NCBI GenBank assembly: GCA_013388555.1 | Contig: JACAFD010000043.1 | Coordinates: 1-32,891 of the forward strand | Direction: 5' to 3' | Length of the DNA: 32,891 nucleotides | Source of the DNA: Nitrospirota bacterium | Lineage (GTDB): Bacteria; Nitrospirota; Nitrospiria; Nitrospirales; Nitrospiraceae | In this document: positions 3,100 to 24,115 of the stretch, in pieces | Position numbering within the stretch: position 1 is the stretch's first letter | Layout of the letters: each line of letters opens with the position of its first letter | The notes under the pieces: generated by a model | Databases searched by the model: none | Seen by the model: only the letters and a program-made list of their open reading frames with translations | Told to the model about the DNA's origin: nothing | Program-made: the position numbers and the translations under genes

Positions 3100-4254
3100 C
3101 TATCCGATGGAATCCTCCCGGCGAAAGAGTACGGTATGGGTTGCCAAGACACGAATCTCTACCGTCGTGCCGGGCTGATAGATGCTTGTGGATCCTTGGC
3201 TGCTATGGACAATTTGGCCGGAGGGGAGACTGACCGTATACAGATTTTCCGAGCCATGGAATTGGCGAGATAGGACGCGTGCCTGGGCGCCTTTAGTGGG
3301 GACGAGGTGAATATCGTCCGGCCGAATCATGACGACCACGGCAGTGCCGTCTTTGGACTCGATCGTGTCGGGAAACTCTCCCAGTTCAGTGTGGACCATG
3401 CCCTGGGAGACGGTCCCAGGAATGAAGTCTGCCTGACCAACAAAGTCGGCTACGAATGGTGTGGCTGGCATGTGATAGGTCATCTCCGGCGTGTCGAACT
3501 GCTCCAAGCGGCCTTGGTTGAGGACGGCGATACGATCGGCCATGGCAAACGCTTCGTCATGATCGTGCGTCACGAGCACTGTCGTTGTTTTCGTTCGGCG
3601 TAACAGATCGTGCAATTCTTGGCGCATGCGTCCAGCCATGTCAGGGTCCAAATTGCTGAATGGCTCATCGAGCAACAGCACGACGGGATTCTGGACAAGG
3701 GCGCGAGCCAGCGCAACCCGCTGTTGCTGACCACCTGATAATTCGTGCGGATACCGCCGCTCGAATCCCTCCAGTCCTGTAAGACGCAACATTTCCTGGA
3801 CTCGTGCGGCGCGCTCGCTTCGAGCGAGGTGGTGAAGCCCAAAGGCGATATTGTCCTGCACACGCAGGTGAGGAAACAGCGCATATTCTTGAAAGACCAT
3901 CCCGACGTGCCGGTTCTCCGTGGGCACCGTCACGTCCGGAGACGACACGAGTTGACCCGATAAGAACAGGTGCCCGGAGCGAACCGGTTCGAACCCGGCG
4001 ATCGCTCGCAGGATCGTCGTCTTCCCACATCCTGAAGGGCCAAGCAGGCAGAGAATCTCCCCTTCTCGTGCCGAAAAAGATATTCCCTGGACCGCGGGGC
4101 GTCCTGGCTCGTAGGCGCAGGAAACTGCACGCAGTTCCAAGACTGAGGAGGCCGCTGTAAAGAGGTGGCCCTCAAATGTGGCCTCCATCGAGTGCGTTGG
4201 TGCGGTGGAACGGTCTGGGGTCACGGGGTTCACATTCCTTCTATTAGGCGGCAC
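3100..4254 (-). CDS. fbpC: Ferric-iron ABC transporter, ATP-binding protein
   Basis: This is the ATPase that drives the FbpAB iron importer. The 384-residue protein has Walker A GPSGCGKTT at about 72-80, the Q-loop FQEYALFPH, the signature LSGGQQQR at about 172-179, Walker B VVLLLDEP at about 191-198 and the His switch LVTHDHDE at about 228. A C-terminal TOBE-like regulatory domain (about 290-384) includes MIRPDDIHLVP. The called GTG start overlaps the end of fbpB by 11 bases. The first 35 or so residues are poorly conserved in character, and an AGAAGGA sequence lies just after the fbpB stop. A start at GTG 4233, GTG 4224 or ATG 4188 is therefore also possible. Spermidine or thiamine transporter ATPases look similar; the partner genes and fur favour iron. 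Confidence 0.88.
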   Translation of the reverse strand: MPPNRRNVNPVTPDRSTAPTHSMEATFEGHLFTAASSVLELRAVSCAYEPGRPAVQGISFSAREGEILCLLGPSGCGKTTILRAIAGFEPVRSGHLFLSGQLVSSPDVTVPTENRHVGMVFQEYALFPHLRVQDNIAFGLHHLARSERAARVQEMLRLTGLEGFERRYPHELSGGQQQRVALARALVQNPVVLLLDEPFSNLDPDMAGRMRQELHDLLRRTKTTTVLVTHDHDEAFAMADRIAVLNQGRLEQFDTPEMTYHMPATPFVADFVGQADFIPGTVSQGMVHTELGEFPDTIESKDGTAVVVMIRPDDIHLVPTKGAQARVLSRQFHGSENLYTVSLPSGQIVHSSQGSTSIYQPGTTVEIRVLATHTVLFRREDSIG

Positions 4255-5827
4255 GCCAATCTTTCGAAACCAATAGAGCCAGTGCCGGGAGGCTCAGCAA
4301 GACAATGAGAAGTGCAGAGGGAGCGGCGAGTTGATAATACTCCTCGCTCGCTTCCATCCAGACACGAATAGCCAGGGTGTCGAATCCCACCGGCCGCAAC
4401 AAGAGTGTCGCTGGTAATTCCTTCATGGTCTGGAGGAACATCAGGACCCAGGCAACGACAAATCCATTCCGAACGAGTGGCAGCGTCACCCGCCGCCAGG
4501 TGTCACGCATTCCAAGGCCAAGGGTGCGAGATACTTCTTCCAGATTCGGCGACATCTGCTGGAGCGCCGGCTCCAGTGACTGGAGTCCGGCCGGGAGAAA
4601 GTGGATTACGTAGGCCACGATGAGGATCAGCGCCGAGCCATAGAATACCGGAGCCACTGTGGTAAAGAGAATGAGGACGGCCAGTGCCGCCACTGGCCCG
4701 GGAAGCACATAGCCGGCATAGGCGGCTTGTAGGCAGCTCAGGTTCAGGAGGGTCGGGCGGCGACAGGCGAGATAGGCGAGTGGCAAACCGACCAATACGC
4801 CGCCGGTAGAGGCACTGGCAGCCAGGATGGCGCTGTTCCAGACAAATCCAAAAAACCGGTTATCGATGGTCGCTAGTGCTTCGGGCGACAGGCTCCATTG
4901 AATCAAGAGTGAGGCTGGGAGGGCGAAGGCCGCGCCAACGATCAGCCCCAGATAGCTGATGACGGCAAGGGTGCCGAGCCGACCATAGCGATGCCGTTCC
5001 GGAGCTCGATAGCGGCCAGTGGTCTGATAAAACCGGCTCCGTTGGCGGAACCACCGTTCAGTGATCAGGAAAATCAGCGCGATCACGACCAGCAAAAGGC
5101 TCAAGATGCTCGCTGCAGTATTGTCGGACCGTCCGGTCATCTGTTGGAACACGGCATAGGTCAGCGTCTGATAGCGAAGCAATGACACAGCTCCGAAATC
5201 CGAGACGACGTACAAGATAACGAGCGCGATGCCGGCGGCAATCGAGGGGCGCATCAACGGCAACGTCACGCGCCAGAGAGTCGCGAGACGGGAGACGCCG
5301 CTGGCCCGCGCCACTTCCTCGAACGACACATTCATACTGAGGAGGGCACTGCGGCTTAGGAGATAGACGAAGGGAAACGTATCCAACGCCATGACGAGTG
5401 TGGCACCCCAAAAACTGTGGGGAGAAAAGATTCTCGCTTGTGGACCGGCTGCAAGCTGCCAGAGATGCTCGGCGGGACCACCGAATCCCAATAGGTAGGA
5501 ATAGACATAGGCCAACACGTATGTCGGCATCGCCAACGGAAGAACCAAAGCGCCTTCCCATAGCCGGCGACCGGGTACTTCTACGCGTGTAACCAGCCAG
5601 GCGGTCGAGACGCCCAGGATCAGCGTGACGACCGCCACGCTGGCAGCCAGCGAGACGGTGTTGAAAAGCAGCTCTGGAATGCGGGTTGCCCACAGGCGCC
5701 CCCAGACGACCGGATCGGCTGAGAGGGCTTGTGCGGTGACATAGCCGAGTGGAAGCAGGATAATTCCAGCAGTTGCTAAGGCGAGGAGTTGCAGTGGCGA
5801 AGCAAGCTGTTGGCGAATCGTGACCAC
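4244..5827 (-). CDS. fbpB: Ferric-iron ABC transporter permease, fused two-domain type
   Basis: This is the inner-membrane channel of the iron importer. The 527-residue protein is a tandem permease, with about twelve hydrophobic segments and one coupling (EAA) loop in each half: EEVARASGVSRLATLWRV near the middle and EEVSRTLGLGMRDTWRRV near residue 430. One chain therefore supplies both halves of the channel, as in FbpB/SfuB proteins. The start is GTG with AAGGGA six bases upstream. It begins 16 bases after fbpA and overlaps fbpC, which fits a single operon. Confidence 0.9.
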   Translation of the reverse strand: MVTIRQQLASPLQLLALATAGIILLPLGYVTAQALSADPVVWGRLWATRIPELLFNTVSLAASVAVVTLILGVSTAWLVTRVEVPGRRLWEGALVLPLAMPTYVLAYVYSYLLGFGGPAEHLWQLAAGPQARIFSPHSFWGATLVMALDTFPFVYLLSRSALLSMNVSFEEVARASGVSRLATLWRVTLPLMRPSIAAGIALVILYVVSDFGAVSLLRYQTLTYAVFQQMTGRSDNTAASILSLLLVVIALIFLITERWFRQRSRFYQTTGRYRAPERHRYGRLGTLAVISYLGLIVGAAFALPASLLIQWSLSPEALATIDNRFFGFVWNSAILAASASTGGVLVGLPLAYLACRRPTLLNLSCLQAAYAGYVLPGPVAALAVLILFTTVAPVFYGSALILIVAYVIHFLPAGLQSLEPALQQMSPNLEEVSRTLGLGMRDTWRRVTLPLVRNGFVVAWVLMFLQTMKELPATLLLRPVGFDTLAIRVWMEASEEYYQLAAPSALLIVLLSLPALALLVSKDWRAA

Positions 5828-5843
5828 GGTGAGTCCCTTCGAA

Positions 5844-6884
5844 TTACCGGAGACCCACTTGTTCGATCAGGGCGAGAGTTGGCTCGCGCAGTTCGGCCAG
5901 TTTGGTGAGCGGGACCAGCGCTGCGCGGAAATTCTTCCGTTCCACGAGTGCCGGGTCCGCCCTCACATCCTGGTGGAGAGGATACTCCTTGTCAAGTTCA
6001 GCAAATAGCTTCTGCCCTGCTTGAGCGACTAAGAATTCTATGAGCAGCTTGGCGCTGTCGAGGTGCTTGGTCGACTTGACGATGCCGACTCCTGCGACGT
6101 TCATGATCGCCCCCATGCCGCCATCTTGCTGGTCCGGCATCAAGGCCGCGATGGGCGCGTCAGGCTGTGTGGCCAGGTGCCGATAGATGTAGTAGTGATT
6201 CACGATACCCAGCGCGACTTGCCCCTTGGCGACTGCATCCACAATTTGCGAGCTTTTCTGGTAGACCTGATTGTCGGCATTGGCCTTGAGGCCCTGTAAG
6301 AATTGCCTGGTCTTTTCCTCGCCGTAGGTTGCGCGGATGACCGATACGCCGGCTTGTAAATATTCACTGCCAGAGTTTGGAATCGCAATCTTATCCTTCC
6401 ATTTCGGATCGGCAAGGTCGAGAAGAGAGTTCACCTGGTCCGGTTGCACCATTGTGCGGTTATAGACCACGATCCAGAATCGTCCGGAGAGCCCCACCCA
6501 GGCATTATCCGGCGCCCGAAATTGGGCGGGAATGGCTCGGTCGATTTCCCGCATATTCAAAGGGCGGAGGAGGCCGGCTGTTCGTGCCAGTTCCAGGCTG
6601 CCGGCGTCATTTGTGATGAAGAGATCCGCCGACGTGCGATCGCCTTCAGCCTTCAGCCGATTGAGCAATTCCGTCGTGCCGGAGGACAATAACTGGATTT
6701 GAATCCCGGTCGTTGCTGTAAAGGCATCGAGTACTGGCTTAATGAGACGTTCCGAGCGGCCGGAGTAGATCGTGAGGTTATCGGCCGCCGACACGGAGGG
6801 TACGAAGGTCCCGGCGATAACGAGGAGCAGGAGACTGGAGAGGACTATTCGGTACAGTGTGGATAGGGGGCATACGAATAACAT
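5844..6884 (-). CDS. fbpA: Ferric-iron ABC transporter, periplasmic substrate-binding protein
   Basis: FbpA-type proteins capture Fe3+ in the periplasm and hand it to FbpB. The 346-residue protein starts with a signal peptide of about 33 residues (a hydrophobic core ending in VSA-AD) followed by the family opening LTIYSGRSERLIKPVL. The tandem tyrosines in NHYYIYRH match the pair that coordinates iron in FbpA. The ATG has AAGGA eight bases upstream. A strong promoter precedes it, and AT-rich DNA just downstream of that promoter is a candidate Fur site. Solute-binding proteins for other ions share this fold; neighbouring fur and tonB support iron. Confidence 0.9.
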   Translation of the reverse strand: MLFVCPLSTLYRIVLSSLLLLVIAGTFVPSVSAADNLTIYSGRSERLIKPVLDAFTATTGIQIQLLSSGTTELLNRLKAEGDRTSADLFITNDAGSLELARTAGLLRPLNMREIDRAIPAQFRAPDNAWVGLSGRFWIVVYNRTMVQPDQVNSLLDLADPKWKDKIAIPNSGSEYLQAGVSVIRATYGEEKTRQFLQGLKANADNQVYQKSSQIVDAVAKGQVALGIVNHYYIYRHLATQPDAPIAALMPDQQDGGMGAIMNVAGVGIVKSTKHLDSAKLLIEFLVAQAGQKLFAELDKEYPLHQDVRADPALVERKNFRAALVPLTKLAELREPTLALIEQVGLR

Positions 6885-16469: not shown

Positions 16470-17414
16470 TTACGGTTTCAGGATCGGCAGCTCCAGCATT
16501 GGCACCAGTGCGTTGTGGCCCTGCTGTCGCGCAAGATCCACAGGTCGGTCTCCTGTTGCTGCCCTGGCTGATTTGTCGGCTCCCTGTTTGAGCAGCAGGG
16601 CCACGACCTCTCGATGTCCGTGTAATGCGGCGACATGCAAGGCGGTCGTGCCGTCCGTCGTCGCTTGCTTCACATCCGCGCCCTTGTCCAACAACAGTGC
16701 CACGATGGCTCGATGTCCCTGTCCTGCCGCCACGATGAGCGGGGTTGTGCCGTCCGTTCTCGCCCGGGCCACCTCGGCGCCGCTGTCCAACAGCAGCGCG
16801 ACGGTTTCTCTATGCCCGTTTTGGGCTGCGATGAAGAGCGGGGTCGAGCCGTCCGTTCTCGCCTGCTCCAGGTCTGCGTTGTGGGCCAGCAGGAGCGCGA
16901 CGATGTTCCGATGCCCCTGCTGGGCTGCCAGGAAAAGCGATGTCGTGCCGTCTGTTCTCGCCTGCGCCACATCCGCTCCGTGGGCCAGCAGAAGCGCGAC
17001 AATGTCCCGATACCCCTTCTCTGCTGCGGCGATAAGCGGGGTTGTGCCGTTCGCCGCCGCTTGCTTCACCACCGCGCCGTGAACCACCAGCAGTGCCACG
17101 ATTTTCCGATGCCCTTTTTCGGCTGCGGCGATGAGCGGGGTTGTGCCGTTCGCTGTCGCCTGCTTCACCACCGCGCCGTTGGCCAGCAACAGGGCCACGA
17201 TCTTTTGATGTCCCTTCTCTGCTGCGACGATAAGTGGGGTGAAGCCGCCCGTATTGGCCGCGTTGACGTCGGCCTGCTTCTTGATGAGCGTGGTCACTTC
17301 GCCAAGATCCCCTCTGAACGCTGCCTTGAGCAGCGCGTCATCCACTGGCCGCATGGCCAGGAGGATCGGCATCAGTCCGAGCACCACTATCAGCACCATC
17401 CACCGCTGTGTCAT
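16470..17414 (-). CDS. Exported ankyrin-repeat protein (upstream copy)
   Basis: A 314-residue paralogue of the following gene. It has the same leader (RWMVLIVVLGLMPILLAM followed by RPVDDALLKAA) and about nine ankyrin repeats, with consensus GTTPLIAAAEKGHRKIVALLL. Several neighbouring repeats are almost the same at the DNA level, a sign of recent unit expansion. The extra two repeats compared with its neighbour account for the greater length. The start ATG has AGGAGA about six bases upstream. As an exported ankyrin protein it probably binds an envelope protein; no target can be named. Confidence 0.88.
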   Translation of the reverse strand: MTQRWMVLIVVLGLMPILLAMRPVDDALLKAAFRGDLGEVTTLIKKQADVNAANTGGFTPLIVAAEKGHQKIVALLLANGAVVKQATANGTTPLIAAAEKGHRKIVALLVVHGAVVKQAAANGTTPLIAAAEKGYRDIVALLLAHGADVAQARTDGTTSLFLAAQQGHRNIVALLLAHNADLEQARTDGSTPLFIAAQNGHRETVALLLDSGAEVARARTDGTTPLIVAAGQGHRAIVALLLDKGADVKQATTDGTTALHVAALHGHREVVALLLKQGADKSARAATGDRPVDLARQQGHNALVPMLELPILKP

Positions 17415-19922: not shown

Positions 19923-20723
19923 TTATTCGTTCTTCAGCTTCTTCTTGATCAATTCTGCGCCGTAGCGGCCTGAGAGCAACATTGAGCCGAAGGCCGGGCC
20001 CATGCGCGGTGTACCGTGCACGGCGGCTACGGCCAGTCCAATCACAAAGCAATTGGGGTACACCTCGCCGGTGTGATTCATCACATCTTCTTCCGAGCGC
20101 GAGACCCACATGGCGCCGTTGCCGGGAACTGCGGTGTAAAGGTTGCGTTTGTGCAACAGATTGACCACAACCGCATCGTGGCCTGTGGCATCGACGACGA
20201 TCTTGCTTTCGAGCCCGATCGGGTCGACGTGAATGAGGTCGTGGCCTGCCATTTCTGCGGTCGTGTTGTTCACGACGACACCTTCAAGCACCCCGTCTCG
20301 ACGGAGAATAAGATCGACGACGCGCGTGAGGTTCAGAACCTTGGCGCCTCCGCGATAGGCGGCGGCCACGAGGGCGCCGGTGGCATGCGGCGGATCGACC
20401 ATGTACATCCCGTCACAGTCCTTGATCTTTTTGCACGGGACCCCGACCTCTTCGAGGATCTTGTGAGCGGGGGCACAGATCGTGGCTTTGTTCATTAGAT
20501 ATCCGCCGTGCCAGAACCCTCCGCCGAGCGCGAGGCTCTGTTCGACGATGACGGTGCGAAAACCCATGTCTGCCAGGTCATGGGCGCAGATCAGACCGGA
20601 AGGCCCGGCTCCTACGATGATGACATCGCTCTCGATGAGCTGGTCGAATTCCTTATAGTATTCCCGTGCAATGTGGCGCGTAATATCTCTTTCCCGAAGG
20701 GGTGCTGGTTTTAGCTTAGTCAT
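19923..20723 (-). CDS. thi4: Thiamine thiazole synthase, Thi4 family, His-type
   Basis: Thi4 makes the adenylated thiazole half of thiamine from NAD, glycine and sulfur. The 266-residue protein has the dinucleotide motif IIVGAGPSG (residues 35-43), GGGFWHGGYLM at about 67-77 and VVDATGHDA at about 176-184. Eukaryotic Thi4 donates sulfur from its own Cys, in a C-M-D-P context, and so works once. Here the equivalent residue is His165 (IHVDP), as in the archaeal enzymes that use sulfide and are truly catalytic. It lies nine bases after thiC on the same strand, pairing the thiazole and pyrimidine branches, and is probably under the same TPP riboswitch. Confidence 0.92.
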   Translation of the reverse strand: MTKLKPAPLRERDITRHIAREYYKEFDQLIESDVIIVGAGPSGLICAHDLADMGFRTVIVEQSLALGGGFWHGGYLMNKATICAPAHKILEEVGVPCKKIKDCDGMYMVDPPHATGALVAAAYRGGAKVLNLTRVVDLILRRDGVLEGVVVNNTTAEMAGHDLIHVDPIGLESKIVVDATGHDAVVVNLLHKRNLYTAVPGNGAMWVSRSEEDVMNHTGEVYPNCFVIGLAVAAVHGTPRMGPAFGSMLLSGRYGAELIKKKLKNE

Positions 20724-20732
20724 GGGGAACTC

Positions 20733-22726
<1,994 letters not shown>

Positions 22727-22751
22727 AGAGAGACCAACGGTGCTCGGTTGT

Positions 22752-22840
22752 TCTCGCTTCCCTACGCTGGTATTACCCAGGTCAGGTTCTGAGGGTCATC
22801 CGGTTGGGCGGACTCTCAGCCGTGCGGCTCCCCTAGCTTC
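22752..22840 (-). promoter_or_regulatory. TPP riboswitch (THI element)
   Basis: The minus strand carries the conserved parts in order: AGCCGCACGGCTGAGAGT, then GACCCTCAGAACCTGA, then TGGGTAATACCAGCGTAGGG. These are the THI-box core that binds thiamine pyrophosphate. The P2/P3 arm is short. A promoter lies immediately upstream and an intrinsic terminator downstream, so it acts on transcription of thiC and probably thi4. Confidence 0.95.
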
Positions 22841-22848
22841 GACGAAGG

Positions 22849-23011: not shown

Positions 23012-24115
23012 ATGCCGATAGTCTCGACACTTCTTAAACCGATCACGGACTACCAGCGATTGTCTGTGGAGGAACTGTTCCGCCGGACGGCTGAAGCGAA
23101 ACGCCTGTTGGGTGAACGGGTCATGATCCTGGGCCATAATTATCAACGGGATGAAGTGATAGAACATGCGGATTTCAGGGGGGATTCCCTTCTCCTCTCA
23201 AAACTGGCAGCTGAGCGGTCGGAACGACCCTATATCGTCTTTTGCGGCGTCCATTTCATGGCTGAGACGGCAGACATCCTGAGCCGCTCCAAACAAACTG
23301 TGATCCTCCCGGATATGGCTGCCGGCTGTTCCATGGCGGACATGGCTGCCATCGAACAGGTCGATCAATGCTGGGAGACACTAGGACGGATACTTCCGGT
23401 GGAAGAGACGGTCATGCCCGCGGTCTATGTGAACTCTGCCGCAGTCCTCAAGGCATTTTGCGGCGAACATGGCGGGATTACCTGTACATCCTCCAATGCG
23501 AAGGCGGTAATAGAGTGGTGCTGGGCCAGGCGGGAGAAGATCCTCTTCTTCCCCGACGAACACTTGGGCCGCAATACAGCCAACAAGATGGGGTTACCGA
23601 GGGAAGAGATGATTGTCTGGGACCCCTTTCAACCCAATGGGGGCAATACTCGCGGAGCGATCCAACGAGCCAAGCTGATTCTCTGGAAAGGCCACTGTAG
23701 TGTGCACCAGATGTTCCAGCCAGTTCATGTGGACAACTTCCGGAAGCAATATCCGGAGGGGAAAGTCATCGTCCATCCTGAATGTCATGAAGATGTCGTC
23801 AACAAGGCGGATCTATCCGGTTCGACGGAATTTATCATCAAGACCGTGACAGCAGCTCCAGCCGGTACAGCCTGGGCGGTTGGCACAGAACTCAATCTAG
23901 TCAACCGTCTCAAGCGCGATCTGACCGATAAGAAAGTCTTCTTCCTTTCGTCTACCGTCTGCCAGTGCGCAACGATGTTCCGGATTGATGGAGCCCATCT
24001 CTGCTGGGCCATGGAGAATCTTGCTGACGGCCACGTCGTGAACCATATTGTCGTTCCTGACGATGAGAAACATTGGGCGAAGATTGCGTTGGACCGCATG
24101 ATGGCCATCAGTTAG
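23012..24115 (+). CDS. nadA: Quinolinate synthase
   Basis: NadA condenses iminoaspartate with dihydroxyacetone phosphate to quinolinate in NAD synthesis, using an oxygen-sensitive [4Fe-4S] cluster. The 367-residue protein has the three cluster cysteines in their usual contexts: C106 (DMAAGCSMAD), C258 (VHPECHEDVV) and one of C317/C319 (STVCQCATM). The GHNYQRDEV motif is near residue 41. GGAGG precedes the ATG at good spacing. No nadB or nadC is adjacent. It is followed by repeat copy C rather than by a gene in operon. Confidence 0.95.
   Translation: MPIVSTLLKPITDYQRLSVEELFRRTAEAKRLLGERVMILGHNYQRDEVIEHADFRGDSLLLSKLAAERSERPYIVFCGVHFMAETADILSRSKQTVILPDMAAGCSMADMAAIEQVDQCWETLGRILPVEETVMPAVYVNSAAVLKAFCGEHGGITCTSSNAKAVIEWCWARREKILFFPDEHLGRNTANKMGLPREEMIVWDPFQPNGGNTRGAIQRAKLILWKGHCSVHQMFQPVHVDNFRKQYPEGKVIVHPECHEDVVNKADLSGSTEFIIKTVTAAPAGTAWAVGTELNLVNRLKRDLTDKKVFFLSSTVCQCATMFRIDGAHLCWAMENLADGHVVNHIVVPDDEKHWAKIALDRMMAIS

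Follow-up and report, generated by a model that had tools for sequence, protein, structure and literature searches.

THI4 in plants and yeast is a costly enzyme that works only once, and catalytic replacements for it are of interest (PMC8454699). Hwang 2014 (PMC4215014) found Cys165 of H. volcanii Thi4 to be essential. In a survey of 199 non-Cys prokaryotic THI4s, 171 had His, and of 26 THI4s chosen for study 23 were tested, 16 of which complemented an E. coli delta-thiG strain in air (Joshi 2021; PMC8454699). One enzyme active in air is that of Thermovibrio ammonificans (TaTHI4), whose donor-position Met158 can be changed to His, Lys, or Cys with performance like wild type; its metal ligands are Asp160 and His175, and Arg239 serves the glycine carboxylate (PMC8454699). 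Nitrospira defluvii THI4, in contrast, showed little or no activity in the same thiazole auxotroph (PMC8454699, Table 1). Neither the donor residue nor the ecology of the source (oxygen, sulfide) explained activity in air, and the authors note that an enzyme may fail in E. coli for many reasons (PMC8454699).

We analyzed a 32,891-nucleotide stretch of DNA from a Nitrospirota bacterium (hereafter the window), which carries a thi4 gene directly behind thiC. The features that concern us are as follows:

19923..20723, minus strand: thi4, non-Cys Thi4-family thiazole synthase, 266 aa (ORF, TIGR00292, PF01946)
20178..20180, minus strand: His182, equivalent of TaTHI4 metal ligand His175 (alignment; ligand per PMC8454699)
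20220..20270, minus strand: donor loop, residues 152-168, 17 residues, NNTTAEMAGHDLIHVDP (length comparison with aligned rows)
20223..20225, minus strand: Asp167, equivalent of TaTHI4 metal ligand Asp160 (alignment; ligand per PMC8454699)
20229..20231, minus strand: His165, donor position, codon CAC (opposite Cys of 1rp0 and Met of 7rk0 in the alignment)
20733..22706, minus strand: thiC, phosphomethylpyrimidine synthase, true start perhaps inside (NF006763, 1066 bits, cut-off 650)
22742..22844, minus strand: TPP riboswitch ahead of thiC-thi4 (RF00059, 70.9 bits, gathering threshold 54.3)
23012-24115, plus strand: nadA, divergent neighbor of thiC-thi4

Elsewhere in the window we note a protein of 314 aa whose similar repeats look ankyrin-like (16470-17414, minus strand; read by eye) and ABC transporter genes (3103-6884, minus strand) that match 2-aminoethylphosphonate uptake models best, at scores below the equivalog cut-offs.

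The thi4 reading frame is complete from ATG to stop. Its product scores 243.7 bits with TIGR00292 (curated cut-off 148.3) and 210.4 bits with the Pfam Thi4 model PF01946 (cut-off 26.2), and since both curated cut-offs are exceeded we assign it to the THI4 family. The host genome measures 3.5 Mb in 327 contigs and is 99.54% complete. Some of the nearest Thi4 proteins in the best 80 of 144 related loci belong to Nitrospira sp. CG24E (98% identity) and N. moscoviensis (94%), so the host is Nitrospira or a close relative, in a class that we take to be Nitrospiria. Members of Nitrospira oxidize nitrite in air. The gene is under strong purifying selection, with dN/dS of about 0.02 in the three computable of four pairs with near relatives: 0.019, 0.022, and 0.022, the third at a dS of 2.07, near saturation; in the fourth pair dS is saturated and dN is 0.032. 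An AlphaFold model built from a 20-row alignment has a mean pLDDT of 38.

In phmmer alignments to PDB sequences, residue 165 falls opposite Cys in Arabidopsis Thi4 (1rp0, QSCMDP), opposite His in three methanogen enzymes (LHIDP/LHVDP), and opposite Met, the residue named Met158 (PMC8454699), in T. ammonificans THI4 (7rk0). The alignment with plant and methanogen enzymes thus puts no Cys at the donor position, which bears out the first-pass annotation in its claim that His165 replaces the sacrificial Cys. Across 169 rows (the window and 168 fetched loci, some of which share one genome) the position is His in 168 and Cys in one, and within the host's class it is His in each of the 142 distinct rows and never Cys; His165 is therefore neither chance nor a sequencing error, and it rules out suicide chemistry by a Cys at that position. 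Equivalents of Asp167, His182, and Arg240, the last corresponding to TaTHI4 Arg239, are kept in 169 of 169 rows and in every aligned row except one degraded sequence from Natrinema. Other positions have changed. By alignment, the adenine-contact Ser178 of TaTHI4 is Val185 here, and TaTHI4 Arg58 is Ser63, an Arg that the methanogens are also without. Several residues that do not vary within the class are replaced in most of 16 rows from outside it: 14 have Arg or Lys for Gln62, nine Glu for Asn202, 15 Met for Leu230, and 15 Ala for Cys46. Cys83 is present as Cys in 155 of the 169 rows.

The donor loop, counted from the conserved Asn152 to Pro168, has 17 residues in all 16 aligned Nitrospira-class rows and in all seven Cys-type rows (plant, yeast, Halarchaeum, and four Nitrospirota Cys-type enzymes). 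Nine other non-Cys rows have 14: three methanogens, T. ammonificans, Parabacteroides, and four His-type enzymes of one Nitrospirota family (f30), the only four of the 169 rows with the loop gap. Published sulfide use or complementation is known for three of the nine, namely M. jannaschii, M. igneus, and T. ammonificans. Loop length is a trait that we see in aligned rows, not a published criterion, and our search of the open literature found no report on it among the matches listed. Given its 17-residue loop together with His165, the window enzyme cannot simply be classed with the archaeal-type His enzymes. The first-pass annotation had likened it to archaeal enzymes: The residue is indeed the same, but the loop is longer than the 14 residues of the methanogen, Thermovibrio, and Parabacteroides rows. 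Among non-Cys proteins for which both loop and complementation result could be read, three 14-residue enzymes worked (T. ammonificans, M. jannaschii, and M. igneus) and the single 17-residue one failed (PMC8454699); four cases prove nothing. Loop length, 17 or 14 residues, is a simple sequence trait by which the active and inactive non-Cys THI4s in print may be told apart. In two f30 loci (L200, 5156-6480; L202, 2119-3210) a gene for a YedE-like transporter is divergent to the short-loop His-type thi4, and in L200 a TusA-like gene follows; these were named by reading the sequences.

We built a tree of Thi4 without the loop columns, omitting the degraded Natrinema row and with thin sampling outside the phylum. 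In the best tree the Nitrospira-class enzymes join the Cys-type Nitrospirota and Halarchaeum enzymes (support 92/91), and the short-loop set is separate (97/97). These groupings suggest, as a lean and not a proof, that the Nitrospira His may have arisen separately from the methanogen His, on a Cys-type scaffold. We rejected the phylogeny as proof of a Cys ancestor: Forcing all non-Cys rows into one clade is not rejected (p-AU 0.295), long branches meet, and the window enzyme is nearly as close to M. jannaschii (47% identity) as to the Cys-type Nitrospirota enzymes (47%-49%). For the same reasons we rely on loop length and call the origin unsettled. Plasmids gave three records, the Natrinema one among them looking degraded, and two single-protein queries found no relatives in viral contigs.

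Only nine bases separate the thiC stop from the thi4 start on the same strand, and the two genes would be cotranscribed. Of 163 host-class loci, at least 142 have thiC directly upstream of thi4 on the same strand (some genomes being counted twice; of the rest, seven contigs end too early, three have no thiC, and 11 were scored as having it elsewhere). All seven thiC-thi4 loci of the class that were scanned have the TPP riboswitch (the window, L074, L144, L146, L176, L178, and L180), whereas none of four thiSGE loci of the class has one, even at E up to 1. As far as the scanned loci show, thiamin feedback within the class therefore acts on thiC-thi4 and not on thiSGE. Outside the class, a riboswitch precedes thiS in two thiS-thiG-thiE-thiC clusters (L191 and L192), Cys-type thi4 in three of three loci (L125, L198, and L199), and f30 thi4 in one of three (present in L201, absent in L200 and L202).

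The genome of the window also encodes ThiS, ThiG, and ThiE, clustered together on a different contig, and thus has a possible source of thiazole other than Thi4. Among 245 sampled genomes of the phylum, 88 have a TIGR00292 match at E up to 1e-20, with a donor His in 87 and a Cys in one (G203); 83 of the 88, all with His, belong to the host's class. Among the 88 genomes sampled from that class, Thi4 and ThiG occur together in 80, Thi4 alone in three, and ThiG alone in five, and no genome is without both; the genomes with a single enzyme may reflect incomplete assemblies. Outside the class, Thi4 occurs in five of 157 genomes, four of them without ThiG, which is missing in nine of the 152 genomes without Thi4 (P = 1.4e-4, Fisher's test, a value that is too kind since three of the four come from one family). 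A further draw of 120 genomes from the class of G203 gave seven with Thi4, four of them already seen; the three new ones are all Cys-type, two having no ThiG match and one a 25-bit partial match. Elsewhere in the phylum, then, Thi4 is rare and occurs without ThiG in seven of eight genomes, the partial match being counted as absent. Our search of the open literature found no report on the Thi4/ThiG pair of Nitrospira among the matches listed.

We note two further features of the ThiG route. Neither ThiH nor ThiO scores above its cut-off in any of 51 genomes, that of the window included, although most have ThiG. There is one ThiH match below cut-off (G142), the single BATS-domain match in each of six genomes checked is presumably BioB, and weaker ThiO matches (E up to 1e-10) occur in 23 of the 51; the ThiO-like match in the window's genome (106.4 bits, cut-off 250.8) was not counted, lying away from the thi genes on a 4.3-kb contig. 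The idea that Thi4 supplies the imine to ThiG found no support: ThiG genomes without Thi4 (e.g., G014 and G067) are also without ThiH and ThiO. In addition, the ThiS proteins of the host's class extend 2 to 16 residues past Gly-Gly-Gly in all four read (L193, from the window's own genome, L195, L196, and L203), tails that may need trimming; a tail is also seen in L191, outside the class, and is absent in L192 and L197.

We consider it probable, on balance, that the gene encodes a thiamin-regulated thiazole synthase that takes its sulfur from outside, as the second gene of a thiC-thi4 operon controlled by the TPP riboswitch. The enzyme most likely makes the thiamin precursor ADP-carboxythiazole from NAD and glycine, with the metal presumably held by Asp167 and His182, and it would work beside the ThiS-ThiG route, whose four examined loci have no such riboswitch. 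Since no Cys sits at the donor position, an external source has to supply the sulfur, whether sulfide or another donor, small or protein-bound, which would probably make the enzyme a true catalyst. In favor of this reading are the TIGR00292 score above cut-off, the retained ligands and Arg, the thiC neighbor, the riboswitch, the low dN/dS, and the missing donor Cys. Against it stand the little or no complementation by N. defluvii THI4 in E. coli delta-thiG, an enzyme 88% identical if it is L074; the presence of ThiG in 80 of the 83 Thi4 genomes of the class, together with the five class genomes that have ThiG and no Thi4; and the substitutions at Ser178 and Arg58.

Some of this evidence could be read differently: Thi4 may no longer be a working thiazole synthase, or may have a related role, for example in binding NAD-derived intermediates, with thiazole made by ThiG. 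The ThiS-ThiG-ThiE cluster in the same genome, the near inactivity of the N. defluvii enzyme in E. coli, the class-fixed Gln62, Asn202, and Leu230, and the loss of the adenine-contact Ser all fit such a loss of function, which we nevertheless regard as unlikely, at perhaps a chance in five, given the strong purifying selection on a protein that keeps its metal ligands, the conserved thiC neighbor with its riboswitch, the lack of a recognizable imine supplier for ThiG (ThiH and ThiO each 0 of 51 above cut-off), and the many possible causes of failure in E. coli (PMC8454699). A suicide enzyme that uses another donor cysteine, for instance Cys46 or Cys83, seems to us the least probable reading of all: The class-wide Cys46, Ala in nearly all outside rows, and the widespread Cys83 invite it, but neither lies inside the donor loop, Cys46 comes after the dinucleotide-binding GAGPSG motif (read by eye), and Cys83 is not universal.

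The first-pass annotation held that the His implies free sulfide or low oxygen at times, or an adapted Thi4; we take the first of these as the reading of an archaeal-type sulfide enzyme and hence a sulfide-rich or oxygen-poor habitat. The residue shared with the methanogens, an identity to M. jannaschii nearly that of the Cys-type relatives, and the single clade of all non-Cys rows that the AU test does not reject speak for it. However, the loop length differs, the residue tracks neither ecology nor aerotolerance (PMC8454699), Thi4 is found in 83 of 88 host-class genomes as against five of 157 elsewhere in the phylum sample, and the ThiG route is present in the same genome. We therefore do not uphold that implication and hold this habitat reading to be very unlikely; the adapted Thi4 that the annotation offered as its alternative may apply. 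A CysK-type cysteine synthase gene in a related genome (G055) indicates that sulfide can be an ordinary intermediate of assimilation. For sulfite reductase, the host yielded only NirA/sulfite-reductase-like proteins below cut-offs, one of them partly read. What weighs most against any simple sulfide model is the negative E. coli result of the N. defluvii enzyme, which makes multiple turnover with sulfide an assumption for the Nitrospira clade.

A more specific form of the externally supplied thiazole synthase is a long shot: The Nitrospira-class enzyme might be a former suicide enzyme that lost its donor Cys, kept the long loop, and takes sulfur from a carrier-protein thiocarboxylate rather than from free sulfide. 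Such a donor, if E. coli does not supply it, would explain why N. defluvii THI4 failed while short-loop His and Met enzymes worked. The window's genome and G055 have carrier-protein sulfur clusters (ThiS-like, ThiF, JAB protease, and PLP enzymes). In G055 (L211, 2048-7562) the order is ThiS-like, cysteine synthase, ThiF, threonine-synthase-like PLP enzyme, ThiS-like, ThiF, and JAB protease, and the window's own genome (L212) has the last four of these.

How the locus compares with described systems can be summarized as follows. N. defluvii THI4 (L074, taken from the organism name to be the protein tested in PMC8454699) belongs to the same clade and shares the donor-position His, the 17-residue loop, and a TPP riboswitch in the locus; it is 88% identical to the window enzyme, and 12% of residues differ. 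The methanogen enzymes of M. jannaschii (4y4m) and M. igneus (4y4n), 44%-47% identical, have the donor His and the Asp and His metal ligands in common with it but differ in their 14-residue loop, in an Arg after the conserved Glu where the window clade has Gln62, and in a Ser in place of Val at the adenine-contact position. T. ammonificans THI4 (7rk0; 39% identity) is likewise a bacterial non-Cys enzyme in which the metal ligands and the Arg239 equivalent are kept, but it has a donor-position Met and a 14-residue loop.

Halarchaeum Thi4 (L182), a haloarchaeal enzyme 42% identical to that of the window, shares the 17-residue loop but has a donor Cys (TCVDP). A 17-residue loop and a donor Cys are also seen in the Cys-type enzymes of another Nitrospirota class (L125, L185, L186, and L187), whose 47%-49% identity is barely above that of M. 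jannaschii; ThiG was not found in three of these four genomes (one 83% complete), the fourth having the 25-bit partial match. Unlike in the window, a gene for a DUF6775 "probable metallopeptidase" directly follows thi4 in all four (L125, 4326-5165; L186; L187/L199; L185/L198), and it precedes thiC in the three loci that reach thiC (L125, L198, and L199). PF20565 occurs in one of the 245 sampled genomes of the phylum, the only one of them with a Cys-type Thi4. We found no mention of DUF6775 in the open literature searched; its protein is a candidate protease for clearing spent suicide enzyme.

A Thi4 with His for Cys is thus already known, and what is new here is the suicide-type loop length, together with the ordinary bacterial enzyme in the same genome. 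A clade in which a suicide-type loop carries His, with strict selection and an adjoining thiamin riboswitch, in organisms known as nitrite oxidizers, offers a natural comparison with the costly plant and yeast enzymes, and asks whether a suicide scaffold can become a catalyst, and with which sulfur donor.
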